A DNA stretch of 37,448 bases from a virus, in the IMG/VR virus record IMGVR_UViG_3300036800_000149, positions 1 to 37,448 of that record; one strand, 5' to 3'. Positions within the stretch are counted from its first letter, which is position 1. Each line of letters starts with the position of its first letter. The notes below the pieces were generated by a model that saw only the letters and a program-made list of their open reading frames with translations, ran no database searches and had not been told where the DNA came from. The position numbers were made by a program, and so were the translations under genes. Shown piece by piece: positions 4,166 through 36,473 of this stretch.

Positions 4166-4170
4166 CCGGG

Positions 4171-4200
4171 CGCCCGGCGGGGGACTTCTCCTGCCGGGCG
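4171..4200 (+). terminator. Strong GC hairpin after the small head gene
   Basis: CGCCCGGC (4171-4178) pairs with GCCGGGCG (4193-4200), with further G-C pairing inside. There is no T-tract, so it is more likely an attenuator or mRNA-stabilising stem, raising the level of upstream coat mRNA relative to tail genes, than a full terminator. Confidence 0.5.
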
Positions 4201-4232
4201 ATCGGCGTTCAAACCACCGACAAGGACCGCAG

Positions 4233-9190: not shown

Positions 9191-11410
9191 ATGGCCGTTC
9201 AACTCCCCTCGCCGGAGAGCGTTCCGCTCGTTACGCCACAAGCAGCGGGGGGCGTCCCGTCGTTCGGTGGGGCGGAAGCGGCAACGCAGGAGCTGGCGGG
9301 CGCAGTCAGCGGACTCGGCGAGGGCCTGACGAAACAGGCTGATTTCATCCAGAGCCTTCGCAACGAGAACAACGCGCGGGATGCCTCGGTGCAACTCAAT
9401 GCGCAGATGGGGGCAATCACGAGCGCCTATCTCCAGAAACAGGGCAAGGCGGCAGACGACGGCTACGACGATTACACCGCGCAGTTGCAGGCGGCCCGAT
9501 CGAGCGCGGTTTCCGCGATGCCGAATCTCGAGGCGGGAAAGATGCTGGGCGATCAGGCCGCCTACATGGTGGACCGCTTTCAGCAAGAGGGTGTCCGCCA
9601 CCGTGGCGAGGCGATGACGCAATGGACCCGGCAGTCCTATGTCGGGAAGCTAGCCGATGCCGCGACCACGGCGGCGCAGAATTGGGGCAATCCCGAGCTG
9701 GTCGGCGGCCAAGTTGCGGTCGGCCAGGACGCGGCCAAAAGCCTGTTCGCGATCGACGGCGGCGACCCATCCAGCCCTGATGGCGCCGCCACGCTGAGGT
9801 CCGATATCGCCGGAGCGACCGACAAGGTGGTGGTGCCGGCTGTGCGGGTGGCCGCCGCATCGAACCCGGCGGCGGCCCAGGCGCTGGTGGATAAGTACGG
9901 GCCGAGCATGTCGGCGGCGGGGCTTGAGGAGGTCACCAGGGAACTGCACGTGAGCGCATCGAACGCGCAGGGCGTGTCGGTCGCGCAGCAAGAGCTGGCG
10001 AGGGCCGCGCAGCCGGGTGGTGGTGTGGCGCCGTCGAACGCAACGCCTGACCAGCTCAACGCCGCTTTCGAAGGCCAGGAAGGCACCGGAACCTCAGTGC
10101 AGGGCGCGGTTGCCGGCCTCATGCCGGGAACTTTCAAGCAGTTCGCACAACCCGGCGAGGACATCAACAATCCGACCGACAACGCCGTGGTGCGGCAGCG
10201 GATCATCGCGAAGTATTCCAGCGACTATCCGGGCGACCCGGCGCGCGTCGCGGTGGCGCTATTCTCCGGTCCGGGAAACGTGGCGCCGCCGGACAGCCCG
10301 GTGCCCTGGCTCCGCGACCCGAAGGATGGCAACGGCACCAGCACGTCGCAGTATGTGTCCGGCTTCCTTGGCCGGCTCACGCCGGGGCAGCCCGCGGCGG
10401 CTACGCCCGCGGAGGGCACGCCAGCAGCGGGCACACCGGCGACGGGCACGCCAGCGCCGCCATCCCGGTCCGATATCCTCATGCGCACCATCCAGGCGAC
10501 TGCGGGTAACCCGCTCGCGCAGGAGGCCGCGGTGCGCCATCTCGACATGGTGTTCCGCGCGCAGGACGCCGACCGGGTGGACGCCGAGCACGGCTATCAG
10601 GTGCAGCAGCAGGTCGCCAAGGCGGCGAGCGAGTCGGACGAAACCAAGGTGCTCGGCGCGCTGGGCAGCAATCCCGCCAGCGTCACGGCGCGGGACATTC
10701 TCAACCCGGCGGGGCCATACCCGCATTTACTGCCGGCCGCGCGCGAGAACATGGTCGCCTTCGTGGAACGGCAGACCAAGCCGGACCCGGCCGCTGCGGT
10801 GTCAGCGGCAACGGTGCAGGGCCTCGTCTCTGACGTTCGCGCCGGCAAGATCACCGACATGGGGCCGGTGTATGACGCATTCACATCCGGGCGGATGAAC
10901 CGCGCCGGCTTCGACTTCGTGCAGCAGCAGTTCAAGGATTTGCAAACCGACGCCGGCCAGCGGCTCGATCAGGAGCAATCGAAGTTCCTCGCCGCGGTGA
11001 GACCGTCGATCGACAAAAGCAATCCGCTGATGGGCAGTCTCGACATGAGCGGCGGCGTGAATTTCTTCCGGCTGCAACAGGATATTGCGAAAGACATCGA
11101 CGATTACCGCAAGGCCGGGAAGAACCCGCACGACCTGTTCGATCCGTCCAAGCCGGATTACCTCGGCAAGCCCGAGGCGCTGGAGCCTTACCAGAACTCC
11201 ATCGTCGAATCGATGGACGACATTTCCCGGCGCATGCACACCGGCAAGTACGCTCCAGCTGCACAACCCGCCTCACCGTCCCCGCCGCCGGCGACCCGCA
11301 CACCGGATCGCACAGTCGATGAGGGGTTCGGGCCAGCCCTCGTCCAGGGCGGTCCGGTCACGGCGCTGCCGCCGCTGCCACCGTTGCCGCCGATCCCGCG
11401 GCGGCACTAG
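9191..11410 (+). CDS. Internal virion protein with SLT-like transglycosylase domain (gp15/gp16 role)
   Basis: 739 aa. The first 280 residues are long Ala/Gln-rich helices. Around residues 286-400 is a transglycosylase-like region: AAFEGQEGTGTSVQGAVAGLMPGTFKQFA, then NNPTDNAVVRQRIIAKYSSDYPGDPARVAVALFSGPGNV, which follows the Slt pattern of a catalytic Glu, a 'S-x-x-GA-x-GLMP-T' motif and an 'A-x-x-x-GPG-V' end in place of AYNAGPG. The Glu near 291-294 is the probable catalytic residue. A Pro/Ala/Thr linker follows, then more helices and a Pro-rich tail. It probably digests peptidoglycan locally during DNA ejection. The usual Asn in AYNAGPG is replaced by Ser here, so activity is uncertain. Confidence 0.65.
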   Translation: MAVQLPSPESVPLVTPQAAGGVPSFGGAEAATQELAGAVSGLGEGLTKQADFIQSLRNENNARDASVQLNAQMGAITSAYLQKQGKAADDGYDDYTAQLQAARSSAVSAMPNLEAGKMLGDQAAYMVDRFQQEGVRHRGEAMTQWTRQSYVGKLADAATTAAQNWGNPELVGGQVAVGQDAAKSLFAIDGGDPSSPDGAATLRSDIAGATDKVVVPAVRVAAASNPAAAQALVDKYGPSMSAAGLEEVTRELHVSASNAQGVSVAQQELARAAQPGGGVAPSNATPDQLNAAFEGQEGTGTSVQGAVAGLMPGTFKQFAQPGEDINNPTDNAVVRQRIIAKYSSDYPGDPARVAVALFSGPGNVAPPDSPVPWLRDPKDGNGTSTSQYVSGFLGRLTPGQPAAATPAEGTPAAGTPATGTPAPPSRSDILMRTIQATAGNPLAQEAAVRHLDMVFRAQDADRVDAEHGYQVQQQVAKAASESDETKVLGALGSNPASVTARDILNPAGPYPHLLPAARENMVAFVERQTKPDPAAAVSAATVQGLVSDVRAGKITDMGPVYDAFTSGRMNRAGFDFVQQQFKDLQTDAGQRLDQEQSKFLAAVRPSIDKSNPLMGSLDMSGGVNFFRLQQDIAKDIDDYRKAGKNPHDLFDPSKPDYLGKPEALEPYQNSIVESMDDISRRMHTGKYAPAAQPASPSPPPATRTPDRTVDEGFGPALVQGGPVTALPPLPPLPPIPRRH

Positions 11411-11413
11411 CGC

Positions 11414-14400
11414 ATGGCCGATCCAGCCGCCGCTGCCGCGGGCGCCGAGCCGTCCGCGCCGCCGTTCGCGCCCGCGCCCGCGGCAGCGCCGCCGGCCCTG
11501 TCCTACCCCGACCAGGCGCGCGCGGCCGGCTACAGCGACGACCAGATCAATCAGTGGCTCGCGCCATGGATGGCCGATGCGCGCGCCAAGGGCTACTCGC
11601 AGGACCAGATCAACGCGCACCTGGGCATCGTGCCGCCGCCCGCGTTCGATGATGGCCCGGTGCGGTCCCAGATCAGCAGCAACCTCGCCGCGGCGGCCAA
11701 GCCGGTCACGTCGTTCGGCGATGCGCTGGAGGCTGGCTGGCAGCTCGGCAACGTCGGCATGGGAATACGCGGCGCGCCACCCTCCAAGACGGTCTCGCCC
11801 GACGCGCCCTGGGCGTCCCGCATCGCGGCGCAGACCGCGGAGCTGGCGGGCGATCTGCCGTCGATGCTCGGTGGGTTCTTCGTTGGCGCGGCGGGAGGCG
11901 CAGAGGGTGGTCCCCCGGGTATGGCGATCGGCGGAACGGCCGGCGCCATGGCGCTGCCGACGGCGCTGCGCGAGTTGATGATGGACAGCTACGCCAAGGG
12001 CCAGTTCACCAATTTCCGGGATTTCTGGTCGCGCGTTGCGCCGGTGATGATCGACACGGCGAAGTCGTGGGTCACCGGGGCTGCCACGGGAGCTGCCGGC
12101 GCCGGCGTCGGCGCGGCCGCGGGCACGGTACCGGGCGCGATCGCGGACTGGGCTCTCCCGGGTTCGATGCAGGCGGCCAAAACGGCCGCCGAAGTGGCGA
12201 CGATGACCACGGTCGGCGCGGCGATGGAAGGCCATGCGCCGGCCGCGATGGATTTCGCCAACGCCGCGATCGTGCTGGGCGGCGTGCACTTTGCCGGGGT
12301 TGGCGCGGTCAAGCTGCGTGATCTTTATGCACAGACCGGGATTACGCCGTCCGCGGTGGTCGCCGATGCTGCGCGCGATCCGACGATCGCGCAGGACATT
12401 CTGAGCGACAAGGCGATACCGGACGCCTACGCGGCGGCGGGGAAGGCGGCCGCGACGCCGGAACCCGAGGCGGCCAGGTCCGCTGCGGGCGAAGACGCTG
12501 GCGGCCAAGCCCCGCCCGGAGAGGCTGCTGCCACAACATCGGCCCGCACACCTTTCACTCCCAATTTTCCCGACGTGGTGATCCAGCGGCCGTACGGCTC
12601 GCCGGTGCGCTACATCGGTCATCCCGACTATGCCGCAGCGAAGGCGGGTGACCCGGAAGCGGCGGACCGCTTCGTTGATGACATGGTGGACCCGGCGAAG
12701 GTCAGCGAGCTACGTGCCGCGATCGGGGACAGCAAGCCAACCGTGGTTGCCGTGCATGCCGAAGAAGCGGCGGGCCGGAACGCGATCCCGGAAACCTACG
12801 CCAAGAAGTTGTCGGGCGACCTTGGGTTGCCGCTGGACGATGGCATTGTCCAGGCGAACAAGCCGCAGCGCACCGGCCAAAGCGCCGAATACCGCATCAG
12901 CGTGCATTCAGAGTTTGACGGTCCGGTAGAGCCGGGGCGCGATTACCTGATCGTGGACGACAACGTGACGCAAGGCGGCACGCTGGCCGACCTGCGGTCC
13001 TATATCGAAAGCCGTGGCGGGCGGGTGGTCGCCGCATCGACATTGACCGGCTCGCGGCAGAGCGAGATATTGGCGCCACGAGCCGGAACGATCGCGGCGT
13101 TGCGAGAGAAGTTTCCGGACCTCGAATCACGATGGCAAGGGACTTTTGGCCATGACCTCAGCGGGCTCACAGAAAGCGAGGCTGGCTACCTTCTCCGCTC
13201 CCCAACGGCTGACGCCCGCGGAGATCGAGTCATTGCGCGCGGACAAGCGGGAACTGCATCGCAAATTAGACGAAATCCACGCCCGCAAGGCGGCGGAGAA
13301 GGCTACGACGGAGAAGACGACGACGGAGAGCCACGCGGCGGAGACGGCGGCGGCGGAGTAACCCAGCCGCCTGGATCGGGCGGTCCTGGGCCTGCTGGCG
13401 GCGGCATGGGCGCGGCCGCCGAGGTTCTTGGCAAAGGCGATCTCTGGCGGCTTCCGCCCGAACAGCTCGACGCGATGCTGGAGGAAAAAGGCGCCTCCAA
13501 CCACGACAAGCTGGTACGCGCGCTCGGCAGTGAAGAAGCAGCAGCCGAGTTCAACCGGCTGGACCGCAAGCAGAACAGCAGCATCGGGAGCCGCGCCGAT
13601 GAAGGCGCCCGAGAGTTCGACGCCAAATTCGGCAATCTGACACCCGAGCAGGAACGGCTGATCTACGGCTTCGGCGAGACAGATGCCGCTGCGGACGACA
13701 TCAAGGCCGTGCTCGATGCGCACGGCAACCGGTCCGACGATCCCACCGATGCAGCCTATGAAGCGGCGATCGCCATCCGCCGGGTGCCGGCGGCCGACAT
13801 CATGGCCGTCCCCGAAGGGCATTCAACGGCAACGGCACAAGCCGCGTACGTTCGCCTGTCCAACGCCTACGAGGATATGCGAGCTGCCGGCATTCCCGGT
13901 GATCAGATTGGCCACGCCATCGCCGGCGCGCTCGTTAACCGCGGCGGCTGGAGTCCCGGTGACGCCGCGGAGGTCGTCGGAAGCTTCATGGAGAGAGTGG
14001 CGGCATCGCAGCCCGCCGCGCCGCGAGCGCCCCAGGCGATGCTGCCCGCGCCGGCCTCAGAAGGAGTGGCGCCGGCTGCCGTGTCCGTCACCACGCATGA
14101 GGTCTTGGACCGCCCGACATCGCGTCCGGACGAGGCGCCGACAGCCGGCGGCGTAGGCGGCGCGCCAGGAGCTCCCGGCACGCAAGGGCTGCTTCCTCTT
14201 CCGGAACCCGGCGCCGGCCCTCCCGCCACGCTCGCCGACGCGCAAAATCGCATCCTGGCGCATATCAGCATCGGCGAGCAGCCGCCGGCGCGCGGCTGGA
14301 GCTGGCGCGGCCTCTACACCAACCTGGTTGACCGGCTCTACCCGCTGGCGGCGGCCGTGAAGTCCGCCTCCGGTGGCGAGGGGCTGCCGGCGGCGCAGAA

Positions 14401-17233
14401 TGCCTACAAGCTGGCGCGGCTGATGTCTGGGGTCGCGGGCAAGGCCGACCGCATGCTCAACGGCGCCGGCACGTTTGATTTCAACAGCTACCAGGACACC
14501 GGCCCGTCTCTGAAGGCGATCCTGGCGCCGGTCGCCGACGATCTCGACGGGTTCCGCGCCTATCTCACCAGCGCGCGGGCGATCGAGCTGGAGGGCCGCG
14601 GCATCGCCACGGGCTTCGACATGCCGAGTGCGCAGCGCGTGGTCGCCGAGAGTGCCGATCGGTATGCCGAGCACGCCGCCAACCTGTTCGGTTTCCAGGA
14701 CCGCGTGTCGCAATACCTGCGCGACAGCGGCGTGCTGTCGGCGAGTGGCTATGCCGCCATGCGCGAGGCAAACCAGCTGTACGTTCCGTTCCAGCGCGTG
14801 ATGGATGACGTCGACGGCTTGGGCATCAAGCTGGCCGGCGGCGGTTCCCTGCAAGCGCGCAACCCGATCCACGCCATCCAGGGTTCGCAGCGCGTGGTGA
14901 TCGACCCGCTCGAGTCGATCATCCGCAACACCTTCCTGTTCACCCAGATGGCCGAACGGAACGCCGTCGGCACGCAGATGGCCGATATGCTGCTGCGCTC
15001 GTCCGCACACGAAGCAGCACCGGCCGAGACGCCGGCCGCGTCGGCTGCGGAGGTCGCGGCACTGCGCGACGCCGGGGTCGCGCATCCCGAGGACCTGGAG
15101 CCAATGATCGCCGGGGCCGCTCCACCGCGCGAGGGCGAGATCCGCATATTCAGGGACGGCAAACCGGAAACCTACCAGGTCGATGCCGACCTGGCCCGGG
15201 CCGTGAAGGGCTTGGACGGCGACACGATGAGCAACCTTGAGCGCATGCTGCGGCCCTTCGCGTCCGCGTTGCGCGCCGGCGCCGTGCTTCAGCCGGATTT
15301 CGTCCTGCGACATTCCCTCCGCGATTTCCTGTACGCCGCGGTCACCTCGCCAAGCGGGCTGTTCACCCCGGTTGACATGGCGCGCGGCTTCCTCGGCCTG
15401 GCGCGGCAGGACGCCGACTATCAGGAATGGCTGAAGACGGGGGGCGCGCAGGTTTCGATGGTCGCGCTCGATCGCCGCTACCTACAGCATTCGATCGACG
15501 ACCTGGCCGGCACGGGTTTGCTGGAACGGGCCTGGAACGTGATGCAGGATCCCGACGCATCAACCGCAGCGAAGGCGCGCGCGGTAGGCATGACGTTGCC
15601 GGCCGACGTGGCGCGCAAGTTCCTCATCTCGCCGATGCAGGCCGCGGTGACGTTCGCCGAAAGCGCGTCGCATCTCGGCGTGTTCAAGCAGCAGCTTCGC
15701 AGCATGGAGGCCGGACAGGAGGGCGGCGCGCCGCTGAGCAAGGCGCAGTTGCAGGAAGCCGGCTTCGTCTCGCGTGATACCGCAGTGGACGCCTCGCGCA
15801 TGGGCGCCAAGATGCGCACCTGGAACGCAGTGGCGGCGTTTTCGAATATTGCGATCCAGGACAGCGACCGGGTGATCCGCGCGTTCCGCGAAAGCCCAAT
15901 GAGCACGGCGATCAAGGTGGCCGGTGCGATTTCCCTCCCATCAGCGTTGACTTGGTGGAACGGCCACGGCGACAGCCGGTATGATGATGCGCCGAATTGG
16001 GAGCGCGACCTGTTCTGGGTGATCCCGACCGATCGGTGGCAGGATATCTCCAGCGAAGACTACGCCAAACAAACCGGCTCCGGGCGGCCAGCCGATCAGC
16101 TTCGTGTTGTTGATGGGCAGTATCAGGCGAATAACGGAATCACCGTCCGCATCCCGAAACCGTGGGGCATGGGCCTTGTGTTCGGCTCCGGGGTCGAGCG
16201 CACGCTGGACGCTTTCGTAGCGCACAAGCCCGATGCCTACGCCGAGTTCGCCAAGTCGATGGGTCAGGTCTCCGTGCCGAACCTGCTGCCGAACGCTCTG
16301 GTTCCGATGATGGAGCAATTCGCCAACCGCAGCACGTTCACCAATCGCACGCTTGTCCCGGACGAAATGGAGAAGTGGCTGCCGGAATACCAGTACACGC
16401 CTTACACAACGCAGACCGCGCGGGCACTTGGTCAGGCGCTCGGTGCGTTTCCCGGCATCAAGGATGCGCGGCTCGATCAAGGCGGCATGGGCGGCGTGGC
16501 GCGTGCTCTCACCTCGCCGATCCTGTTGGAGAATTACCTGCGCGGGTGGACCGGCAATCTCGGCATGTATGCATTGCAGCTCGCCGACGCCGGCTTGCGT
16601 AATGCCGGCATCGTTCCTGATCCCCCGATGCCAGCCTCGACGCTTGCAGACATTCCGATCGTCAAGGCGTTCGTCGTGCGCTACCCGTCGAGTTCGGCAC
16701 AGTCGATCCAGGATTTCGAAGACCAATACGCCGGCAATAAGGTATTTCTCGACACATGGCGGGCGATGGCGCGCAACGGCGACGCCGGCGCGATGGCGCG
16801 GATCAGCGCTGGCGCTCCTCCTGCCGCGCAGGCCGACATGAGTGGCGCCAACGCGCAACTGCTGCGGCTTGGCGTGACTCCTCCAGGTGCGGACAAGCGC
16901 ACCATGGGCAGCCTCTCGTCGCAGCAGACGCGCGCCACGACGGACGTGGAAACGCAGTCGCAGCTCGCCGGGATGCAGGTCGCGGCGATCCGGGCGAAGG
17001 CAACCGGCTTCGGTTCGCAGGTGACGGTTTCCCAACTGGACGACATCCACCAGGCGATCGGCGAGAATTCGCAGCTGGTGCGAGACATCAGCAAGAACCC
17101 AAACATTCCGCCGGACGAAAAACGCCAGCTCATCGACACGGCGTACTGGCGCATGGCCGAATTGGCACAGATCGGCAAGGCGTCGCTCGCCCAGGCATTG
17201 GGCAGCCCGACGGCACCAGGCGCCTTGCACTAA
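11414..17233 (+). CDS. Giant internal/injection protein with phosphoribosyltransferase-like domain (polyvalent protein)
   Basis: 1939 aa. Residues 30-75 contain two copies of a GYS-DQIN motif; residues 150-280 hold Gly/Ala-rich hydrophobic helices. Residues 388-580 look like a type I phosphoribosyltransferase: the PRPP-loop motif is YLIVDDNVTQGGT at about 510-523, preceded by a strand-helix region (PTVVAVHAEEAAGRNAIPETYA). A low-complexity acidic/Gly linker follows, then helical regions; residues 1280-1500 (VLRHSLRDFLYAAVTSPSG, AVAAFSNIAIQDSDRVIRAF) resemble a large polyvalent-protein associated domain of the LPD38 kind. Such proteins travel in the virion, form part of the ejection machinery, and deliver enzymatic domains into the host. 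The single open frame is intact. Confidence 0.75.
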   Translation: MADPAAAAAGAEPSAPPFAPAPAAAPPALSYPDQARAAGYSDDQINQWLAPWMADARAKGYSQDQINAHLGIVPPPAFDDGPVRSQISSNLAAAAKPVTSFGDALEAGWQLGNVGMGIRGAPPSKTVSPDAPWASRIAAQTAELAGDLPSMLGGFFVGAAGGAEGGPPGMAIGGTAGAMALPTALRELMMDSYAKGQFTNFRDFWSRVAPVMIDTAKSWVTGAATGAAGAGVGAAAGTVPGAIADWALPGSMQAAKTAAEVATMTTVGAAMEGHAPAAMDFANAAIVLGGVHFAGVGAVKLRDLYAQTGITPSAVVADAARDPTIAQDILSDKAIPDAYAAAGKAAATPEPEAARSAAGEDAGGQAPPGEAAATTSARTPFTPNFPDVVIQRPYGSPVRYIGHPDYAAAKAGDPEAADRFVDDMVDPAKVSELRAAIGDSKPTVVAVHAEEAAGRNAIPETYAKKLSGDLGLPLDDGIVQANKPQRTGQSAEYRISVHSEFDGPVEPGRDYLIVDDNVTQGGTLADLRSYIESRGGRVVAASTLTGSRQSEILAPRAGTIAALREKFPDLESRWQGTFGHDLSGLTESEAGYLLRSPTADARGDRVIARGQAGTASQIRRNPRPQGGGEGYDGEDDDGEPRGGDGGGGVTQPPGSGGPGPAGGGMGAAAEVLGKGDLWRLPPEQLDAMLEEKGASNHDKLVRALGSEEAAAEFNRLDRKQNSSIGSRADEGAREFDAKFGNLTPEQERLIYGFGETDAAADDIKAVLDAHGNRSDDPTDAAYEAAIAIRRVPAADIMAVPEGHSTATAQAAYVRLSNAYEDMRAAGIPGDQIGHAIAGALVNRGGWSPGDAAEVVGSFMERVAASQPAAPRAPQAMLPAPASEGVAPAAVSVTTHEVLDRPTSRPDEAPTAGGVGGAPGAPGTQGLLPLPEPGAGPPATLADAQNRILAHISIGEQPPARGWSWRGLYTNLVDRLYPLAAAVKSASGGEGLPAAQNAYKLARLMSGVAGKADRMLNGAGTFDFNSYQDTGPSLKAILAPVADDLDGFRAYLTSARAIELEGRGIATGFDMPSAQRVVAESADRYAEHAANLFGFQDRVSQYLRDSGVLSASGYAAMREANQLYVPFQRVMDDVDGLGIKLAGGGSLQARNPIHAIQGSQRVVIDPLESIIRNTFLFTQMAERNAVGTQMADMLLRSSAHEAAPAETPAASAAEVAALRDAGVAHPEDLEPMIAGAAPPREGEIRIFRDGKPETYQVDADLARAVKGLDGDTMSNLERMLRPFASALRAGAVLQPDFVLRHSLRDFLYAAVTSPSGLFTPVDMARGFLGLARQDADYQEWLKTGGAQVSMVALDRRYLQHSIDDLAGTGLLERAWNVMQDPDASTAAKARAVGMTLPADVARKFLISPMQAAVTFAESASHLGVFKQQLRSMEAGQEGGAPLSKAQLQEAGFVSRDTAVDASRMGAKMRTWNAVAAFSNIAIQDSDRVIRAFRESPMSTAIKVAGAISLPSALTWWNGHGDSRYDDAPNWERDLFWVIPTDRWQDISSEDYAKQTGSGRPADQLRVVDGQYQANNGITVRIPKPWGMGLVFGSGVERTLDAFVAHKPDAYAEFAKSMGQVSVPNLLPNALVPMMEQFANRSTFTNRTLVPDEMEKWLPEYQYTPYTTQTARALGQALGAFPGIKDARLDQGGMGGVARALTSPILLENYLRGWTGNLGMYALQLADAGLRNAGIVPDPPMPASTLADIPIVKAFVVRYPSSSAQSIQDFEDQYAGNKVFLDTWRAMARNGDAGAMARISAGAPPAAQADMSGANAQLLRLGVTPPGADKRTMGSLSSQQTRATTDVETQSQLAGMQVAAIRAKATGFGSQVTVSQLDDIHQAIGENSQLVRDISKNPNIPPDEKRQLIDTAYWRMAELAQIGKASLAQALGSPTAPGALH

Positions 17234-29237: not shown

Positions 29238-29657
29238 TCAGCGGCGGCGCTTCCTGATTTGCTCCCTGACTCGCGCCTTTACGTCGGGCTGCTGCACGAT
29301 GTCATCGACCATGGCCCGTATGGCGCGGAGGTCAGTGGTCGCGCCGTCGATGTTCGCCGCAATCGCGCGGAGCACGCGCATCTGGGCGGCCGGATCGTTC
29401 TCCGTGCCGGTGTCCTCAAGCACCGCCCTGATCTTGTTTTCCGGTTCCAACGTCCCGCTCGTCCCGCCCCGCGTGTAATCCGGTCTGCCTGTGAGGAGTT
29501 CCGTCCCGTATGGCCGTCCGGGGATAGGGCCAAAATCCTTCAGGGCGCCCCGGAGTTGCCGAACCTCTCCCCGCAATTTGTCGGCGTCAAGCGAGAGGCG
29601 AGACAATGCCTCCGGGATTGGCCGGGTGATCGGCGGTCTTGTTCGTCTGTCGCTCAC
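29238..29657 (-). CDS. Protein of the repressor operon, unknown function
   Basis: 139 aa; the GTG start overlaps the stop of the 47-aa gene (GTGA). A helical N-terminus (PIPEALSRLSLDADKLRGEVRQLRGALKDFGP) is followed by a polar linker and a second helical block (AAQMRVLRAIAANIDGATTDLRAIRAMVDDIVQQPDVKARVREQIRKRRR). Basic tail. No family assigned; last gene transcribed with the repressor. Confidence 0.5.
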   Translation of the reverse strand: MSDRRTRPPITRPIPEALSRLSLDADKLRGEVRQLRGALKDFGPIPGRPYGTELLTGRPDYTRGGTSGTLEPENKIRAVLEDTGTENDPAAQMRVLRAIAANIDGATTDLRAIRAMVDDIVQQPDVKARVREQIRKRRR

Positions 29658-29731
29658 TCGGCCGCCCGCAACTGCCGCACGTTCACCGCACACCCTGGCC
29701 TAACCCGATTTTCTGCGACGCGGCCTCCCAC
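29654..29731. repeat. 78-bp direct repeat, copy 1
   Basis: Matches 30092-30169 at 77 of 78 positions. It encodes the last 25 residues of the 47-aa gene and overlaps the start of the 139-aa gene. Confidence 0.9.
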
Positions 29732-29797
29732 CCGAGGGTGCGGTGGGGGTTCCGGTCCCTTGGCCTGGGGTGACGCGAGTCCCCGCGATTCGGCCAT
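29654..29797 (-). CDS. 47-aa protein sharing its C-terminus with the repressor
   Basis: ATG two bases after the stop of the 75-aa gene. MAESRGLASPQAKGPEPPPH, then PRVGGRVAENRVRPGCAVNVRQLRAAE; the last 24 residues equal those of the repressor at 30092-30508, and the preceding residues (AKGPEPPPHPRV versus RPKGPDPTRPIV) are diverged but alignable. It may be a remnant of a duplicated repressor gene or a small antagonist made from its tail. Confidence 0.5.
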   Translation of the reverse strand: MAESRGLASPQAKGPEPPPHPRVGGRVAENRVRPGCAVNVRQLRAAE

Positions 29798-29799
29798 CG

Positions 29800-30027
29800 T
29801 CACTTTGCGGGCGCCGGCAGTTGGATGACGATCGGCGCCGGCGGTTCATGGTGCGCCCAGATCAGGTTGCCGATGCCGACCCCCGCACCGACCGCTGCGG
29901 CCGTGGCGAGGATGGCGGAGACGACGAACTTCCGGGTTTCCCACTTCTGGTCGTTGCGCAGCTTCTCGATGTTGATCGTCATCTGATCGATCCGGAGATC
30001 CTGTTCTTCCTGGTCGCGCGTGGTCAC
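29800..30027 (-). CDS. Small W-anchored membrane protein (paralogue 3)
   Basis: 75 aa, GTG start. MTTRDQEEQDLRIDQMTINIEKLRNDQKWETRK is a charged coiled coil, followed by one membrane helix (FVVSAILATAAAVGAGVGIGNLIW) and a tail PPAPIVIQLPAPAK. It shares the collar-helix-Pro tail plan with the plus-strand genes at 28338 and 28862. It lies between the two 78-bp repeats, so it looks inserted into the repressor operon. Confidence 0.6.
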   Translation of the reverse strand: MTTRDQEEQDLRIDQMTINIEKLRNDQKWETRKFVVSAILATAAAVGAGVGIGNLIWAHHEPPAPIVIQLPAPAK

Positions 30028-30091
30028 CGTCGCGCCTGGTTACGCCGGCACCCACGGGTCGCCCGCTCATGTTGGGCGACGCTCCCCTCCG

Positions 30092-30169
30092 TCACTCGGC
30101 CGCCCGCAACTGCCGCACGTTCACCGCACACCCTGGCCTAACCCGATTTTCTGCGACGCGGCCCCCCAC
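30092..30169. repeat. 78-bp direct repeat, copy 2
   Basis: Second copy of 29654-29731 (77/78). It encodes the C-terminal 25 residues and stop of the repressor. Confidence 0.9.
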
Positions 30170-30508
30170 GATAGGGCGCGTCGGGTCAGGTCCTTTCGGC
30201 CGGCGCGGTTGGGTGTGCTCCTGATACAGGCGACGGCCAGCCGGGAGTTGAGCGATCAGGTCGTCCAGGGAAAAGCCGGTGACCCGGCGCAGCGCCGCCA
30301 GGATCCAGAGCGGTGGCTCGCGCTTACCCATCTCATACAGGCGGTACCGTTCTTCCGGCCGGTCGCCGCTGATGCCGAGCATCTTGGCGAACTGCTTTTG
30401 CGTGAGGCTTCCCTGGCCCGTTTCCGTGCCGTAACGCGCGCGCGCGTCCCTTAGCGCAGCAGCGAACAGGCGCAGAGCTTCTTGTGTCGTGTGAGGGTCA
30501 TCGTCCAC
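30092..30508 (-). CDS. XRE-family phage repressor
   Basis: 138 aa, GTG start. After a charged N-terminus comes GSLTQKQFAKMLGISGDRPEERYRLYEMGKREPPLWILAALRRVTGFSLDDLIAQLP, a clear XRE HTH domain with an unusual insert (GDRPEE) in the recognition region. The C-terminus (GPDPTRPIVGGRVAENRVRPGCAVNVRQLRAAE) has no peptidase-like site, so induction would not follow the LexA/CI self-cleavage route. It is divergent from the Cro-like gene with two operators between, as in lambdoid switches. Likely binds CCAAC-N5-GTTGG. No clear ribosome site is seen. Confidence 0.8.
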   Translation of the reverse strand: MDDDPHTTQEALRLFAAALRDARARYGTETGQGSLTQKQFAKMLGISGDRPEERYRLYEMGKREPPLWILAALRRVTGFSLDDLIAQLPAGRRLYQEHTQPRRPKGPDPTRPIVGGRVAENRVRPGCAVNVRQLRAAE

Positions 30509-30521
30509 CGGGGCAGTCTTG

Positions 30522-30536
30522 CCAACAAATAGTCGG
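30522..30536. promoter_or_regulatory. Operator OR2
   Basis: CCAAC-AAATA-GTCGG, one mismatch to the dyad CCAAC-N5-GTTGG. Lies just upstream of the repressor start, so it may serve autoregulation. Its centre is 45 bp from OR1. Confidence 0.55.
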
Positions 30537-30557
30537 GCGACACCCTACAATGTGTCC

Positions 30558-30586
30558 TTGACTTGTCCAACATATCGTTGGATGGT
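30558..30586 (+). promoter_or_regulatory. Rightward early promoter
   Basis: TTGACT (30558-30563), 17-bp spacer and GATGGT (30581-30586), in the same geometry as the leftward promoter. The spacer holds the perfect operator at 30567-30581. The predicted start (about 30593) is at the ATG of the Cro-like gene, so the transcript may be leaderless. Confidence 0.6.
30567..30581. promoter_or_regulatory. Operator OR1 (CCAAC-N5-GTTGG)
   Basis: Perfect dyad CCAAC-ATATC-GTTGG in the spacer of the rightward promoter, the same position relative to -35/-10 as OL1. Confidence 0.75.
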
Positions 30587-30593
30587 CGCGAAG

Positions 30594-30854
30594 ATGGCGA
30601 TCGCGGCATACCTAACCGAGCACGGTCTTACCGACGCTGAGCTGGCCAACCAGGTCGGCGTGAGCGCCGAACTCGTGCGACTTTGGCGCCACGGGCGCCG
30701 CACCATCTCAGCCAAGCGCGCAGTCGTAGTCTCGCGAGTCACCGGCATCCCTCGGCACGAATTGCGGCCCGACCTGTGGGAGCCGCCCGAATCCGCCCCC
30801 ACTCCCGAATCCGCCCCGAGGCGCCGCAAACGCGTGACGGCAGCAGCCGACTGA
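30594..30854 (+). CDS. Cro-like (YdaS-type) regulator
   Basis: 86 aa. MAIAAYLTEHGLTDAELANQVGVSAELVRLWRHGRRTISAKRAVVVSRVTGIPRHELRPDLW follows the YdaS/Cro pattern almost throughout: HTH at residues 11-32, then 'I-S-A-K-R-A' and the 'TGI-RHELRPDLW' ending. The tail is Pro/Arg-rich. No ribosome site precedes the ATG, in keeping with a leaderless start. It is the first gene of the rightward operon, divergent from the repressor, and should shut off the repressor promoter. Confidence 0.8.
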   Translation: MAIAAYLTEHGLTDAELANQVGVSAELVRLWRHGRRTISAKRAVVVSRVTGIPRHELRPDLWEPPESAPTPESAPRRRKRVTAAAD

Positions 30855-30903
30855 AACAAGAACCCCCGGCGCGGCGTTGCGACCGGCCGGGGGCCAAGGA
30901 GAA
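30852..30903 (+). repeat. Repeated hairpin/SD leader element, copy 1
   Basis: Begins at the Cro-like stop with TGAAACAAGAAC, then an 8-bp stem CCCCCGGC/GCCGGGGG, then CCAAGGAGAAA and the ATG of the next gene. Same order as copies 2 and 3. Links a stop codon, a hairpin and a Shine-Dalgarno site into one module. Confidence 0.7.
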
Positions 30904-31062
30904 ATGTCTGTGAGAGAAATGTCGCGCCCCGCCTCCCAACGACCACGCCCCAAACAGGGTGGTTGCAACATGATCCGTTGCGCTTCCTGGCGGTTGCCGC
31001 GGTGCGAAACCGTCGAGGCGCACGTGTGTGGCGACGACAGCCGGCTGGTGCGGACACCATGA
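30904..31062 (+). CDS. Cys-containing small early protein, 52 aa
   Basis: MSVREMSRPASQRPRPKQGG then CNMIRCASWRLPRCETVEAHVCGDDSRLVRTP. Four Cys in a CxxxxC / C / C arrangement may bind metal. The strong GGAGA ribosome site lies in the repeat just upstream. Function unknown; next gene starts in an ATGA overlap. Confidence 0.45.
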   Translation: MSVREMSRPASQRPRPKQGGCNMIRCASWRLPRCETVEAHVCGDDSRLVRTP

Positions 31063-31094
31063 GCGCCGCTGTCCACAACCCCGCCGCCGACTGA
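31059..31094 (+). CDS. 11-codon ORF
   Basis: MSAAVHNPAAD, ATGA-overlapped with the previous gene and ending at the TGA that begins leader copy 2. A coupling remnant is as likely as a real peptide. Confidence 0.25.
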   Translation: MSAAVHNPAAD

Positions 31095-31130
31095 AACAAC
31101 AACGGCCCGACCGTGAGGCCAAGGAAAACC
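31092..31130 (+). repeat. Repeated hairpin/SD leader element, copy 2
   Basis: TGAAACAACAACGGCC, short GGCC/GGCC stem, then CCAAGGAAAA and ATG at 31135. The shortest stem of the three copies, but the flanks are conserved. Confidence 0.65.
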
Positions 31131-31134
31131 TACT

Positions 31135-31260
31135 ATGGAAGCAGCGCTACCGCATTCGAAACCACCAAGGCCGGAACTCGATGTTTGCAATGCGCGACGT
31201 CACGTGAGCGACCGCGGGGACGCTGTCGCGCTGCGGCCAGGCCCCGAAGCGGTCGGTTGA
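31135..31260 (+). CDS. Small early protein, 41 aa
   Basis: MEAALPHSKPPRPELDVCNA, then RRHVSDRGDAVALRPGPEAVG. Bounded on both sides by copies of the leader element, so it is the cargo between repeats. No family recognised. Confidence 0.4.
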   Translation: MEAALPHSKPPRPELDVCNARRHVSDRGDAVALRPGPEAVG

Positions 31261-31311
31261 AACAACAACGGCCCTGCCCAGCGGCAACCGGACAGGGCCA
31301 AGCGGAGAAAC
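31258..31311 (+). repeat. Repeated hairpin/SD leader element, copy 3
   Basis: TGAAACAACAACGGCCCTG pairs as GGCCCTG (31270-31276) with CAGGGCC (31293-31299), a perfect 7-bp stem, then AAGCGGAGAAA and the GTG of the GcrA-like gene. It starts at the stop codon of the 41-aa gene. Confidence 0.7.
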
Positions 31312-31315
31312 GCAC

Positions 31316-32209
31316 GTGTTGCAGGCCGCCATATCGCCCCGTTCCTCATCCGTTTCCAGTGCCAAGTCCGTGTCCGCGGCGCAGGCCAACAGCCCCTGGC
31401 CGGAGCGCGTGCCCGACCTCGTCCGGCACCACGTCGCGGGACTGTCACCGTCCAAGATCGCAGCAACGATGGGCCTGACGCTCGGCCAGGTGTGCGGCCA
31501 GGTGCACCGGCTGAGACAGCAGGGCCGGTTGCTGGAGCGCGCCGTCCTGCCAACGCGCGGCGGTCCTGGCGTGGCGTCGTCGCCCGACGCCGAAGCGCAA
31601 CGCCGCGCGAAGCTCCGCGCGCGGGCGCTGGCGCGCAAGGCTGTGCCCTCGTCGGCAGCCGCCGTCGAGTCGGCTGCCCCCGAGTCCCCTGCCCCCGAAT
31701 CCCCTGCCATTGTCGCCGCCACCCCACCGTTGCGGCCCGACCAGGTCAACCCGCAATGGATCACCCCGGAATGGCCGCGCGAGAGGATCGTCCGGCTATG
31801 GAATCTCTGGACGGCGGCATCGCCGGTACTGGCCATCGCGCGCGAGCTGCGCACGTCGAAGAACGCCGTCGTCGGCACAGCCGGGCGCATCGGGCTGCCG
31901 TCGAGGCCGTCGCCGATCCGTCGGACCGACGCCCAGGCTGCCCCGAGTTCGCGCCCCACCGTCTCCATCGGCGCCGGCGCGACCCTGCCGCCCCTGGCCT
32001 CTGTCGTAGCGATCGACCAGACCCCCGCGCCGGCCGCGCCACGCCCCCGCCTCCCTGGGCAACGCGTCATCACCTGCTGCTGGCCGATCGGCGAGCCCGG
32101 CACGCGCAGCTTCCGCTTCTGCAACACCGAGTCCGAAGCCGGAAAGCCGTACTGCCCCGATCACGTCAAGATGGCCTACCGGCGGCTGCGGCCGGCGGAG
32201 GCGGCGTGA
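31316..32209 (+). CDS. GcrA-like cell-cycle regulator with two HTH regions
   Basis: 297 aa, GTG start after a GGAG site. Region 1 (about residues 23-62): PWPERVPDLVRHHVAGLSPSKIAATMGLTLGQVCGQVHRLRQQG; region 2 (about 150-190): EWPRERIVRLWNLWTAASPVLAIARELRTSKNAVVGTAGRIGLPSR. Both follow the GcrA HTH pattern 'W...R...L..L...G.S...IA..LG..T..AV.G...R.G'. The C-terminus (CCWPIGEPGTRSFRFCNTESEAGKPYCPDHVKMAYRR) matches the GcrA zinc-binding end. GcrA acts with RNA polymerase at CcrM-methylated promoters in alphaproteobacteria. The phage copy has a duplicated HTH separated by an Ala/Pro linker; it may redirect host transcription during early growth. Confidence 0.8.
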   Translation: MLQAAISPRSSSVSSAKSVSAAQANSPWPERVPDLVRHHVAGLSPSKIAATMGLTLGQVCGQVHRLRQQGRLLERAVLPTRGGPGVASSPDAEAQRRAKLRARALARKAVPSSAAAVESAAPESPAPESPAIVAATPPLRPDQVNPQWITPEWPRERIVRLWNLWTAASPVLAIARELRTSKNAVVGTAGRIGLPSRPSPIRRTDAQAAPSSRPTVSIGAGATLPPLASVVAIDQTPAPAAPRPRLPGQRVITCCWPIGEPGTRSFRFCNTESEAGKPYCPDHVKMAYRRLRPAEAA

Positions 32210-32625
32210 TGCACGCGCTCCGTTCCAGCCCGGCACTCCCCGCCGCGATCCCTGCCGGCCGCCTCGATCCCGTCGCGGCCTGGCGGGCGCTCCCTCTTCG
32301 TGCGCAGGAGGAGGTCGGCGCCGCGGCGATCGCGCTCACGATCGGCGTCATCGGCACCGACCTGACCGCCGCCCAGCCGTACCTCACCGCGATGCAGGAG
32401 GCGGCCGACTGGCTGCGTGCCCTGATCGAGGTCGCCGTGCTGGGCAACGCCGACGTCACGCAGCCGCCGCCCGTGCCGGATCTGAGTCCGTTCGGGATCC
32501 GCCAGTGCACCGGCTGCGGCTGCACCGACCACCACGCCTGCGCGGGCGGCTGCACGTGGATCGAGATCGACGGGGACCGGTGCACCGCGTGCGGGCCGGA
32601 AGCGGCGCGGGAGGCTCGGGCATGA
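32209..32625 (+). CDS. Zinc-ribbon phage protein
   Basis: 138 aa, start overlapping the GcrA-like stop (TGATG). The N-terminal 85 residues are helical (RAQEEVGAAAIALTIGVIGTDLTAAQPYLTAMQEAADWLRALIEVA). The C-terminus has the zinc pattern common in phage early proteins: IRQCTGCGCTDHHACAGGCTW then DRCTACG, about eight Cys/His. Often found beside replication genes; possible single-strand DNA binding or protein docking. Exact role unknown. Confidence 0.65.
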   Translation: MHALRSSPALPAAIPAGRLDPVAAWRALPLRAQEEVGAAAIALTIGVIGTDLTAAQPYLTAMQEAADWLRALIEVAVLGNADVTQPPPVPDLSPFGIRQCTGCGCTDHHACAGGCTWIEIDGDRCTACGPEAAREARA

Positions 32626-34097
32626 GCTGGGCAGCACTTCTCGATGCGCACGCTTTCGGTGACCTGCAAGCCGACCTCCAAGGCGTGCCCGCCCGCGCCG
32701 GGATAGCGTACGTGCATCTGATGGCGCGCCTGGGCCGCGTCGGCCCTGTGCCGTTTGAGGACGTCGTACTCGCGGCCGTGGCGGGAGTCGGCCTCAAGAC
32801 CTGGACCAACAGGATTTGGCCGATGATCCGGCACCTGTTCGACGTCGAGGACGGCTATCTGTGCCATCCCGGCATCGATGGCGCGCATGCCGTCCCGGCC
32901 GGCCCGACCGCCCGGCAGGCGTCGGCCAGCCACGCCGCCAGGACGCGCCACGAACGGGACCGCGAGCGGCGGCGCCAGCAGCTCAGCCTCATCACGGGCG
33001 ACGCTGCGCAGGATGCGGAACCCACCGCTGCGCATGCGCTGCGCACTGCGGAAGCGGGGTCTCCGCATGCGCTCCGCACTGCGGAGGAGGGGTCTGCGCA
33101 TGACCAAAACCCTGCGATTTCAATGCGCGGCGCAGAAATTTTTCGTGCGGAGAGCGCTGCTGCGCATGCGCCGCGCAGTGCGGAGGCGCCGGCTGCGCAG
33201 GCTCGCGTCGCGCTCGCGCGCACACACACGCACACACCCCTTTCTTCTGATTCTTCCCTTCAGTCTGGAGAATCTTCAGGGGTGGGTGAGTCTGGGAGGG
33301 GGTCCGGGGGAGGGATCGCCGCGTCCGCTCCGCAGGCTGCGCAGCGTGCGGAAACCCCTGCGCAGCTTCCTGCGGAGACCCCTGCGCACAGCCCTGCGCA
33401 GGTGCGCACGTTCGCCGCGCCGCGTGCGCCCAGGCCGGCTGCGCAGGCGCCAACGGCGCTGGCGCCGATCCCCGCCGACTGGCAGCCGAGCGAGCAGGAC
33501 CAGCGGGAGGCGCGCAAGCGCGGCTACGATCCGGACGAGGCGGCCGAGCGCTTTCGCGACGTCTACATTGCGAGCGGCCGGCGCGAAGCGAACTGGTCCG
33601 CGAAATTCCGCACTTTCGTGCGGCAGGGGATCAGCGGCCTGACGCCGCAGCAGTCGCCGCAGCGCGGCATGATGATGCCGATCGCCGGCGGCGCGGCGGG
33701 ATCCTCGGCCGCCATCCCCGCCGAGACCGCCGCCAAGGACCGCGCCACGGCGGCCTGGGTGGCGGCAGCCGAGGCGTGGCTCGCGGGTACTCCCTACGCC
33801 GCTGGCTGGGCGCGCGTGCGTGCGGTGATGCAGGCGGAGGTGGGCGACGTGGAATACCGCGCGTGGCTCGCCCCGATGGCGCTGGTGGGCGCCGCCGGCG
33901 ACGCGGTGACGATCGGGCTGCAGACCCGCTTCACGCGCGATCAGGTACAACGCCGCTTCGGCGCCCGGCTGGCGGCGCTATGGCGGGCCGAGAACCCGGC
34001 GGCCGACCGGATCGACTTCGTGTTCCAGGTGCTGGCGGAGGCGTCTCCGGCGGCATCGGAGCGGGCGCGGGGGCCGCCGGACGCCCTGGCGGGCTGA
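32622..34097 (+). CDS. Replication initiator with DnaA-N-like C-terminal domain
   Basis: 491 aa, ATGA overlap with the previous gene. Residues 1-95 form a winged-helix-like domain (LMARLGRVGPVPFEDVVLAAVAGVGLKTWTNRIWPMIRHLFDVEDGYLCHPG), like phage O-type initiators. Residues 105-125 are basic and coiled (HAARTRHERDRERRRQQLSLI). Residues 133-266 are low-complexity and come from the repeat-rich DNA. The C-terminal part (about 375-465: TAAWVAAAEAWLAGTPYAAGWARVRAVMQ... YRAWLAPMALVGAAGDAVTIGLQTRFTRDQVQRRFGARLAALW) fits a DnaA N-terminal domain, which binds helicase and DnaA partners. The gene holds candidate origin iterons within its coding sequence, as lambda O does. Confidence 0.75.
   Translation: MSWAALLDAHAFGDLQADLQGVPARAGIAYVHLMARLGRVGPVPFEDVVLAAVAGVGLKTWTNRIWPMIRHLFDVEDGYLCHPGIDGAHAVPAGPTARQASASHAARTRHERDRERRRQQLSLITGDAAQDAEPTAAHALRTAEAGSPHALRTAEEGSAHDQNPAISMRGAEIFRAESAAAHAPRSAEAPAAQARVALARTHTHTPLSSDSSLQSGESSGVGESGRGSGGGIAASAPQAAQRAETPAQLPAETPAHSPAQVRTFAAPRAPRPAAQAPTALAPIPADWQPSEQDQREARKRGYDPDEAAERFRDVYIASGRREANWSAKFRTFVRQGISGLTPQQSPQRGMMMPIAGGAAGSSAAIPAETAAKDRATAAWVAAAEAWLAGTPYAAGWARVRAVMQAEVGDVEYRAWLAPMALVGAAGDAVTIGLQTRFTRDQVQRRFGARLAALWRAENPAADRIDFVFQVLAEASPAASERARGPPDALAG
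33028..33184. other. Candidate origin of replication: five 33-bp units
   Basis: Inside the initiator gene, near-identical 25-bp sequences start at 33028, 33061 and 33160 (each 23/25 to the first; core CGCATGCGC then CGCA-TGCGGA). Two degenerate units fit the same 33-bp step at 33094 and 33127; the latter carries an A/T-rich core (AAATTTTT). In protein they encode 11-residue repeats (AHALRTAEAGS, PHALRTAEEGS, AHAPRSAEAPA). A helically phased iteron array inside an initiator gene is the arrangement of the lambda origin. Confidence 0.6.
33331..33410. repeat. Second repeat cluster in the initiator gene
   Basis: CCCTGCGCA occurs at 33356, 33380 and 33392, with related CTGCGCA words between. Shares the TGCGCA core of the iterons; it encodes Ala/Pro/Glu-rich protein. 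May extend the initiator-binding region. Confidence 0.45.
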
Positions 34098-34959: not shown

Positions 34960-35550
34960 ATGAGCCGGCGGTCGCGTCCCACGACCGCTGCCGTGCCGGC
35001 TCGCGCGGATGACGCTGCCCCCGCTGCCCGCTGGACGCACGGCCAGGAGATCGACCCCCCGGTCGCGCCCCGCATGCCGTCATGCGTCGCATCGGGTGTC
35101 TGGCTGCTGCGCCACGCCGACCCGCCGGCGATCGGCGATGCGGAGGTGGTCGCGGCCGACCGCTTCCGGGTGGACTACATCCGCGGCGTCGAAGGTGTGC
35201 GCGAACCGAGCCTGGCGCAGCGCAGCGGGAGCGCGGACCACCACGACGTCCAGATCATGCGCGCCGAAGCCGTCACCCGGCACCGCGAGATCAGCGAGGT
35301 GATCGGCCCGCGGATGACCGATTGGCTGGTGGATTTCCTGGTGCTGGATCTGTCGTTCGTGGCGATGGCCGACCGGCACTGGCCGGGCGACGCGGGACGG
35401 AAGGAGATGCGCGGGGCGATGGCGACGATGCTGCTGCTGCTGTCGCGGTTGTATGCGGCGATCGACCGGCGCAAGCCCAAACCGGGCGATGGCGGGTTGC
35501 GCGCGGTCGCGGTCGCGGTGCTGACCGAGCCGGAGGGTGCGGCCGACTGA
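34960..35550 (+). CDS. DUF6456-like phage regulator (tentative)
   Basis: 196 aa. The first 40 residues are Arg/Pro/Ala-rich. The core, VAADRFRVDYIRGVEGVREPSLAQRSGSADHHDVQIMRAEAVTRHREISEVIGPRMTDWLVDFLVLDLSFVAMADRHWPGDAGRKEMRGAMATMLLLLSRLY, resembles DUF6456-type proteins of alphaproteobacteria in its 'RF/LR-DY-RG', 'R...I-E-VIGP' and 'WP...K' elements. It follows an inverted-repeat promoter and ends the rightward early block, the position where phages often carry late-gene activators or antiterminators. Function inferred. Confidence 0.5.
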   Translation: MSRRSRPTTAAVPARADDAAPAARWTHGQEIDPPVAPRMPSCVASGVWLLRHADPPAIGDAEVVAADRFRVDYIRGVEGVREPSLAQRSGSADHHDVQIMRAEAVTRHREISEVIGPRMTDWLVDFLVLDLSFVAMADRHWPGDAGRKEMRGAMATMLLLLSRLYAAIDRRKPKPGDGGLRAVAVAVLTEPEGAAD

Positions 35551-35556
35551 GCGGCC

Positions 35557-35787
35557 TTACGCGGCTGCTCCGCGTCGCCCGGGCCGCACGCCATTCCATC
35601 CGACGGGCTGCGAATCCGCGGATGCCATCGCGGTGGCAACGTCAGCGAGCCATGCCAGGACTTCCGGCGGCGGGGCACGTCGGCCGCGTGCCCACTGGTT
35701 GGTGGTGTCGGGTGACACATCCAGCCGTATGGCCAACTCGCCCGTGGTCCAGCCGATGCGGGCGAGAAGGCTGGCGACCGGGTTCAC
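35557..35787 (-). CDS. XRE-family regulator
   Basis: 76 aa, GTG start nine bases after GGAGG. VNPVASLLARIGWTTGELAIRLDVSPDTTNQWARGRRAPPPEVLAWLADVATAMASADSQ is a compact HTH (residues 10-40) like small prophage or toxin-antitoxin regulators. It is second in a leftward pair whose upstream region holds a perfect 8-bp inverted repeat at 36038-36060, a likely operator for autoregulation. Confidence 0.65.
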   Translation of the reverse strand: MNPVASLLARIGWTTGELAIRLDVSPDTTNQWARGRRAPPPEVLAWLADVATAMASADSQPVGWNGVRPGRRGAAA

Positions 35788-35791
35788 CCGA

Positions 35792-35989
35792 TCAACCCTC
35801 CTTGGTCTGCGCGAGCGCAATCGAATAGGCCATCCACCACTGACTGTCGCGCAGGGCGATCGTGGCCTCGCGCGACAGTCCCAAGTCGGTCAGATGGTTG
35901 GACATCGCCTTGTAGAGCCGGCCCGCGTCTCGCGCTTTGGCCGGCGTCATAAGGGGGATCGGCGGCAGCAGGAACGGTTCGTCGCTCAT
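35792..35989 (-). CDS. Small protein paired with the XRE regulator, 65 aa
   Basis: GAGGAG precedes the ATG. MSDEPFLLPPIPLMTPAKARDAGRLYKAMSNHLTDLGLSREATIALRDSQWWMAYSIALAQTKEG: a polar start and helical end with a WW pair. Translated just before the HTH gene. A partner protein, possibly an anti-repressor or toxin-like product, but no catalytic feature is visible. Confidence 0.5.
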   Translation of the reverse strand: MSDEPFLLPPIPLMTPAKARDAGRLYKAMSNHLTDLGLSREATIALRDSQWWMAYSIALAQTKEG

Positions 35990-36037
35990 CCGAGTTGCTC
36001 CTCGTTTCCGCCGGGCCATCCCCGGCGACAGACGCAC

Positions 36038-36060
36038 AATGACCGTGATTGCCGGTCATT
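36038..36060 (-). promoter_or_regulatory. Operator-like dyad with candidate promoter for the XRE pair
   Basis: AATGACCG (36038-36045), 7-bp spacer, CGGTCATT (36053-36060). On the minus strand TTGCAA, 17 bp, CATTGT overlaps it. Placed for autoregulation of the pair at 35557-35989. Confidence 0.55.
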
Positions 36061-36151
36061 GCAAACGGTGTCTTGCGCGCGGCCGATTATTATTCCGGCA
36101 GCACGACCGCCGTACCGCTTGCGCGCTGGTCCAGCGACACCACCTGTCCGG

Positions 36152-36418
36152 TTATGTCGGCTCGCTGCGCCCGCTCCCGTTCGGTGGCGGGCGTTTTGCT
36201 GTCTGGCGTCCGCGCTTGTCCCAGACGATCCCGTAAACCGGGCCGTGGTCATTCATCGCGGCGCGGCTGATACGCTCCACGGTCAGCACGTGCAGCCCGG
36301 CGCCCCTGTCGTTCACGGCGATGATCAGGTAGGCGCCACGCCCGCGCGCAGACGCCAGGACGCACCCGTGCATCGGCGCCTCGGCCAGCGGGCCGTGCCA
36401 ACGGTAGCGGATCTTCAT
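36152..36418 (-). CDS. Phage protein of unknown function, 88 aa
   Basis: MKIRYRWHGPLAEAPMHGCV, then LASARGRGAYLIIAVNDRGAGLHVLTVERISRAAMNDHGPVYGIVWDKRGRQTAKRPPPN. The beta-strand pattern 'GAYLIIAV... L-VLTVERI' and 'YGIVWD' suggests a small sheet protein seen as a hypothetical protein in other phages. It lies between the XRE pair and the serine recombinase. No ribosome site of note. Confidence 0.5.
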   Translation of the reverse strand: MKIRYRWHGPLAEAPMHGCVLASARGRGAYLIIAVNDRGAGLHVLTVERISRAAMNDHGPVYGIVWDKRGRQTAKRPPPNGSGRSEPT

Positions 36419-36473
36419 CGCGACCCCTGTTCCAACGGCCGATACGTCCAATAGCGGATAGGACGCCCGTAGA

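Follow-up and report, generated by a model that had tools for sequence, protein, structure and literature searches.

Early operon of the phage

The virus record analysed here is a stretch of 37448 bases, which we refer to as the window. Its gene content points to a temperate phage of alphaproteobacteria, including a GcrA-like protein (PF07750, 2.4e-27) and a serine recombinase (PF00239), and its structural genes match a tail protein (phrog_376) and an internal virion protein (phrog_418). A 1939-aa ORF (11414-17233) lies behind an endolysin-like protein (9191-11410, phrog_10475).

Three copies of a short leader element lie at the start of a rightward early operon, behind a Cro-like gene and before the gene for the GcrA-like protein (Table 1). 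The order is minus-strand HTH gene, Cro/YdaS-like gene, copy 1, small ORF, copy 2, small ORF, copy 3 and GcrA-like gene. The ORF of the Cro/YdaS-like gene opens at 30519, the portion from 30582 onward having been used for the searches, and its stop codon supplies the first bases of copy 1. The GcrA-like protein joins the cell-cycle regulator domain to a separate N-terminal part, within a phage early operon. Positions 29654-29731 and 30092-30169 form a 78-bp direct repeat (98.7% identical) that encodes the common C-terminus of two otherwise unlike minus-strand ORFs adjoining the immunity region.

The preliminary description had placed the copies between small genes. This is likely but not proven, since the coding evidence for two of the small ORFs is weak (GC3 of 0.71 and 0.57, compared with 0.77-0.90 for the HTH-like, GcrA-like, DnaA_N and tail genes and for 32206-32625). 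The start of the 11-aa ORF overlaps the stop of the preceding 50-aa ORF (ATGA), and the frame upstream of copy 2 may be either this 11-aa frame or, alternatively, a 43-aa frame with a TTG start. A PHROG search with the 41-aa ORF gave no match. The small frames around the copies may not all be genes, and their coding status is weakly supported.

Table 1. Leader copies and neighbouring genes in the window, with the comparable array of viral contig L197 (record positions)
Feature	Positions	Strand	Details
HTH gene	30092-30508	minus	
Cro-like/YdaS-like HTH gene	30582-30854	+	PF15943 2.1e-08, PF01381 7.6e-06, phrog_35 repressor 1.8e-11
Copy 1	30852-30909	+	stop TGA 30852-30854; A-rich spacer; 8-bp hairpin 30863-30893 (arms 30863-30870 CCCCCGGC, 30886-30893 GCCGGGGG); CC; SD AAGGAG 30896-30901; start GTG 30910
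Small ORF after copy 1, 50 aa	30910-31062	+	GTG start; GC3 0.71; putative coding
11-aa ORF ending in the stop of copy 2	31059-31094	+	read from sequence; GC3 0.83 over 12 codons; putative coding
Copy 2	31092-31134	+	stop TGA 31092-31094; CAACAAC spacer; 4-bp hairpin 31104-31120 (arms GGCC 31104-31107, GGCC 31117-31120); SD AAGGA 31121-31125; start ATG 31135
41-aa ORF, copy 2 to stop of copy 3	31135-31260	+	GC3 0.57; weak coding support
Copy 3	31258-31315	+	stop TGA 31258-31260; CAACAAC spacer; 7-bp hairpin 31270-31299 (arms GGCCCTG 31270-31276, CAGGGCC 31293-31299); AAGC; SD GGAG 31304-31307; start GTG 31316
GcrA-like regulator gene after copy 3	31316-32209	+	PF07750 GcrA 2.4e-27
L197 six-copy stop-hairpin-SD array	57988-61034	minus	

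Anatomy and folding of the leader copies

Each copy consists of TGAAACAA(C/G)AAC, a GC hairpin, and GGCCAAG with a Shine-Dalgarno (SD) site, and all three share one order: an in-frame stop codon comes first, then 8-9 nt of A-rich spacer, the GC hairpin, the SD and finally the start codon. The 12-mer TGAAACAASAAC has three exact matches in the window, all of them in the copies (shuffle mean 0.00); when two mismatches are allowed, four matches are found where 1.37 are expected. The three stop-hairpin-SD copies of the preliminary description are therefore real, as are the perfect 8- and 7-bp stems that it reported for the two longer hairpins. The stem of copy 2 has 4 bp, or 5 bp if a bulge is allowed. 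The description of unlike hairpins between similar flanks held for the upstream side, where the 12-mer is constant while the stems differ in sequence and keep their pairing, but the flank that carries the SD varies among the copies (AAGGAGAAA, AAGGAAAAC and AAGCGGAGAAA). Bases upstream of the stop are also common to copies 1 and 2.

The hairpin begins 8, 9 and 9 nt past the stop in copies 1, 2 and 3, respectively, and the SD follows within 0-4 nt of the stem in each case. By the size of the ribosome footprint, a terminating ribosome reaches approximately 8-9 nt past the stop codon with its leading edge. The gaps from stop to start are 55, 40 and 55 nt and the hairpins occupy 31, 17 and 30 nt of them. 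For copy 1 we took the GTG at 30910 as the start; the alternative ATG at 30904 has an SD spacing of only 2 nt.

Minimum free energy folds of the three copies show the described hairpins. Copy 1 folds at -25.9 kcal/mol (5 of 200 shuffles as good), copy 2 at -8.5 kcal/mol (20 of 200) and copy 3 at -21.4 kcal/mol (2 of 200), and the z-scores for the leaders alone are modest at -1.91, -1.42 and -2.45. When the 40 nt after each stop were compared with dinucleotide shuffles, the z-scores were -2.86, -1.50 and -2.35. Elsewhere in the window, we applied the same measure to 18 tight junctions (<25 nt), where it averages +0.28, and to 10 other wide junctions, where it averages -1.02; all of them were called roughly, with a crude selection of ORFs and starts chosen by us. 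Good folds also occur at two of the tight junctions (28341, z -2.45; 24271, z -1.92), and the mean of the other wide junctions owes most to a single strong hairpin, located behind 4165 (z -6.16). This hairpin (4166-4205, between two structural-module ORFs) has a 13-bp stem right after the stop and a 40-nt fold of -33.7 kcal/mol; it is a candidate for another structure that ends either translation, like those considered below, or transcription.

Among 1012 background 40-mers from the window, those at least as stable amount to 0.1% for copy 1, 11% for copy 3 and 77% for copy 2. Copy 2 is a weak, marginal member of the set, since a larger share of its shuffles fold as well as it does. A covariation test within the window would need more than three stems. 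A search of the window with 4227 Rfam families at the covariance-model gathering score gave no match.

Translation at the junctions and competing readings

The closest parallel to this anatomy is the ribosome termination structure (RTS). Chemla et al. (2020) describe stable folding of the mRNA immediately after stop codons, which lowers re-initiation and is proposed to act as a translation separator, on the basis of a genome-wide statistical signal and of experiments with a synthetic E. coli operon, in which stronger structure behind the stop led to less re-initiation; such structure is enriched at gaps of at least 25 nt and depleted at shorter ones (PMC7518266). The three gaps at the copies, with the starts chosen here, are all longer than 25 nt. 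The 40 nt behind the stops fold at -25.2, -8.5 and -17.0 kcal/mol, in each case below the RTS value of -6 kcal/mol per 40 nt, which we applied as a plain cut-off in place of the statistical model of the original report (PMC7518266). Folds present at the three wide gaps and mostly absent at tight junctions agree with the published rule of enrichment and depletion, against which the tight junctions at 28341 and 24271 stand as a counter-point. The copies would thus partly match RTSs in behaviour, with the addition of an SD; their predicted membership is partial because copy 2 is not unusually stable and because an RTS is defined by its effect on re-initiation.

Given this likeness, we put at roughly even chances the reading that the leader is a reusable separator, an RTS fused to an SD, that ends the translation of one gene and restarts it at the next. 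A ribosome terminating at the TGA would cover roughly the 8-9 nt of unstructured, A-rich sequence that follow it, and its leading edge would run into the GC hairpin. This hairpin would impede scanning and re-initiation and so favour release, and the SD right after it, with the start codon 8-9 nt further on, would allow initiation by fresh ribosomes. Adjacent small early genes could in this way be transcribed together yet translated independently. We infer the block of re-initiation and the de novo initiation from the anatomy, and likewise a history of duplication in which the phage would have copied the leader to successive gene junctions, the stems later diverging with their pairing kept. Among the functions proposed in the preliminary description, a role at the level of translation is the best supported, but a constitutive separator plus ribosome-binding site of the RTS type is to be preferred to a regulated switch.

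We also considered whether the hairpin might insulate the SD by keeping it open. Partition-function folding with the hairpin pairs forbidden, which among the copies of L197 covered the first one, left the computed SD accessibility undiminished, so exposure of the SD is not a role that we ascribe to the hairpin.

The same anatomy could serve an effect of opposite sign, translational coupling, in which the extruded hairpin would bring stop and SD within about 10 nt of each other and the terminating ribosome would be passed on. With the hairpins excised, the stop-to-start distances are nearly constant at 24, 23 and 25 nt (copy 1 with the GTG at 30910), although this arises largely from the conserved flanks, and a review reports coupling, at lower efficiency, over distances of as much as about +40 nt (PMC12548453). 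We nevertheless regard coupling as unlikely, as the structure effect measured in the synthetic E. coli operon runs the other way (PMC7518266) and such folds are missing at most tight junctions of the window.

On sequence grounds, the strongest rival to the separator is a set of putative intrinsic terminators on the minus strand. Read leftward, the copies resemble terminators in that a GC hairpin is followed by GTTGTTGTTTCA or GTTSTTGTTTCA, and they would stop stray leftward transcription before it reaches the repressor region. A scan of 29600-32600 flagged copies 2 and 3 on this strand; it returned seven terminator-like sites, four of them in these two copies, compared with 1.5 in shuffles. 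Several chance matches of GAAACAACAACGGCC in IMG/VR also resemble bidirectional terminators by eye (L031, L035 and L043). However, G or C bases break up the T runs, the region to the right has no recognised minus-strand gene with a transcript in need of stopping, and the analogous leader of L197 lacks a T-rich flank on both strands. Terminators would also leave unexplained why each copy starts at a stop codon and finishes in an SD, and on balance we consider them improbable. On the sense strand, the likeness to intrinsic terminators is confined to the GC hairpin: there is no U-tract, an SD and a start codon follow directly, and the scan detected no plus-strand terminator at the copies.

A further proposal of the preliminary description was that the copies are junctions for the exchange of early gene cassettes. 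In its strict form, the flanks would be recombination joints and the hairpin incidental. The invariant columns of the flanks beside unlike genes, and the similarity of copies 1 and 2 that extends upstream of the stop, are in line with this proposal, and short boundary sequences have been put forward as joints in phage mosaics (PMC3029335). Against it, the flanks measure merely 12 and about 7 bp, the stems keep their pairing despite sequence change, and the searches turned up no other genome in which the cassettes are swapped; we judge this strict form to be quite improbable. As an origin of the copies, a cassette junction is possible, and it is compatible with the separator rather than exclusive of it.

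Cleavage of the A-rich spacer, with the hairpin shielding either the freshly made 5' end or the 3' end on the upstream side, would make the leader an element of mRNA processing or stability. An unstructured A-rich spacer does adjoin a GC hairpin here in an apparently polycistronic region, but the hairpin of copy 2 is weak, and we regard this as a remote prospect. In lambda, nutR lies just behind cro, and copy 1 likewise lies immediately behind a Cro-like gene. The antitermination site suggested in the preliminary description, a nut/put-like element recognised by a phage factor, is nonetheless scarcely credible, since no octamer within one mismatch of the BoxA consensus occurs between 30631 and 34354 (the nearest are at 30623, within the HTH gene, and at 34355), the hairpin sequences are unlike and an SD adjoins each of them. 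A nut-type site would combine a BoxA with an adjacent, conserved BoxB hairpin.

Published relatives and occurrence in other genomes

The preliminary description knew of no standard element of this form, but the literature holds close relatives in kind. The likeness to RTSs lies in a stable fold right after the stop, gaps of at least 25 nt, depletion at tight junctions and separated translation of neighbours, whereas RTSs as described by Chemla et al. are statistical, unspecific in sequence and found in bacterial genomes (PMC7518266), and the leader here is conserved in sequence, abuts an SD and recurs three times in a phage operon. The SAS and ESAS of cluster K mycobacteriophages (Pope et al. 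2011) are likewise repeated at the starts of non-structural phage genes, and about half have an upstream inverted repeat at a variable spacing; their authors see little support for an RNA hairpin (PMC3203893), whereas the stems here change and still pair. The 13-bp SAS core GGGATAGGAGCCC, which in those phages lies a few nt from the start, gave no match here with up to two mismatches allowed. The 17-bp dyad repeats of cluster O phages such as Corndog are also short inverted repeats, many of them intergenic, that are repeated within one phage, but as reported their arms are invariant and not linked to starts (PMC4351075), whereas here the arms vary and are linked to a stop and an SD. A search of the open-licence literature found no description of repeated stop-hairpin-SD modules in phages. 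The separator principle is known from bacterial genes; its repeated phage version would be new.

The preliminary description had suggested a pattern search in other phages, and the scans that we ran found no exact-sequence relative. The pattern GAAACAACAACGGCC occurs in 89 stretches of IMG/VR, where the inspected sites are largely coding or terminator-like and appear to be chance matches, the distant case of L059 being the only one with a hairpin-plus-SD form. The pattern GAAACAAVAAC...GGCCAAGG matched 51 stretches, again chance-like; three of the matches (L125, L138 and L144) have a short hairpin ahead of an SD. By eye, none of the 15 stretches of genome_contigs with GAAACAASAACSSCC...GGCCAAG has the form of the leader, and ACRRCCC...GGGCCAAGGAG matched four of 385 genomes of the alphaproteobacterial class, with a reversed control no lower. 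Homology searches found no relative of the GcrA-like protein or of 34960-35550 and 35537-36454, and a search of the 385 genomes with 32622-33800, run without a positive control, found none either. Over all the scans run, the early region thus yielded no relative. L093 (tail protein 95% identical) and G082:C158 (41%) have only the structural module in common with the window.

The architecture recurs in other sequences. A scan of IMG/VR with AACGGCCC...GGGCCAAGGAG returned nine stretches, seven of which (L187, L188, L190, L191, L193, L194 and L195, with L191/L194 and L188/L195 as pairs) carry hairpin, SD and start in that order by eye. The clearest recurrence in unrelated viral contigs is L197, a 62.8-kb contig whose own leader, AATCA-hairpin-CAGCAAGGAACGA, is unrelated in sequence and stands in six copies before six consecutive ORFs of 91, 165, 93, 89, 150 and 465 aa. 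Covariation among these six is weak (one compensatory change, two mismatched cells; equalled in 146 of 500 shuffles). Hairpins with varying stems also abut the SD, by eye, at several starts in L250 and two in L253. These contigs and L197 were retrieved by hairpin patterns and form a biased sample.

Across phage starts as a whole, hairpins that abut the SD are not in excess (25 of 3896 positions vs 208 of 18884), so a general rule is rejected and the arrangement would be a device of some phages. A pattern with matched arms followed by SD and ATG occurs in 106 stretches of IMG/VR vs 76 for a control arm, a difference that is no more than suggestive, since background frequency is not the same for the arms; 18 of the 86 distinct sites parsed have stems of at least 7 bp, three of these being near-identical by eye.

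It is possible, if doubtful, that unrelated phage lineages independently built a part combining a termination hairpin with a ribosome-binding site and spread it by copying across the junctions of operons made up of small early genes. If so, genes could be gained or lost without disturbing the translation of their neighbours, and the part would be a natural counterpart of insulated ribosome-binding-site parts. With conserved flanks and changing stems at three junctions (six in L197), this natural repeated module offers a compact test case that would allow direct measurement of what a fold after a stop codon does and how it contributes to turnover among small phage genes. In another stretch, L285, promoter-like leaders with a ribosome-binding site are repeated at four minus-strand starts.
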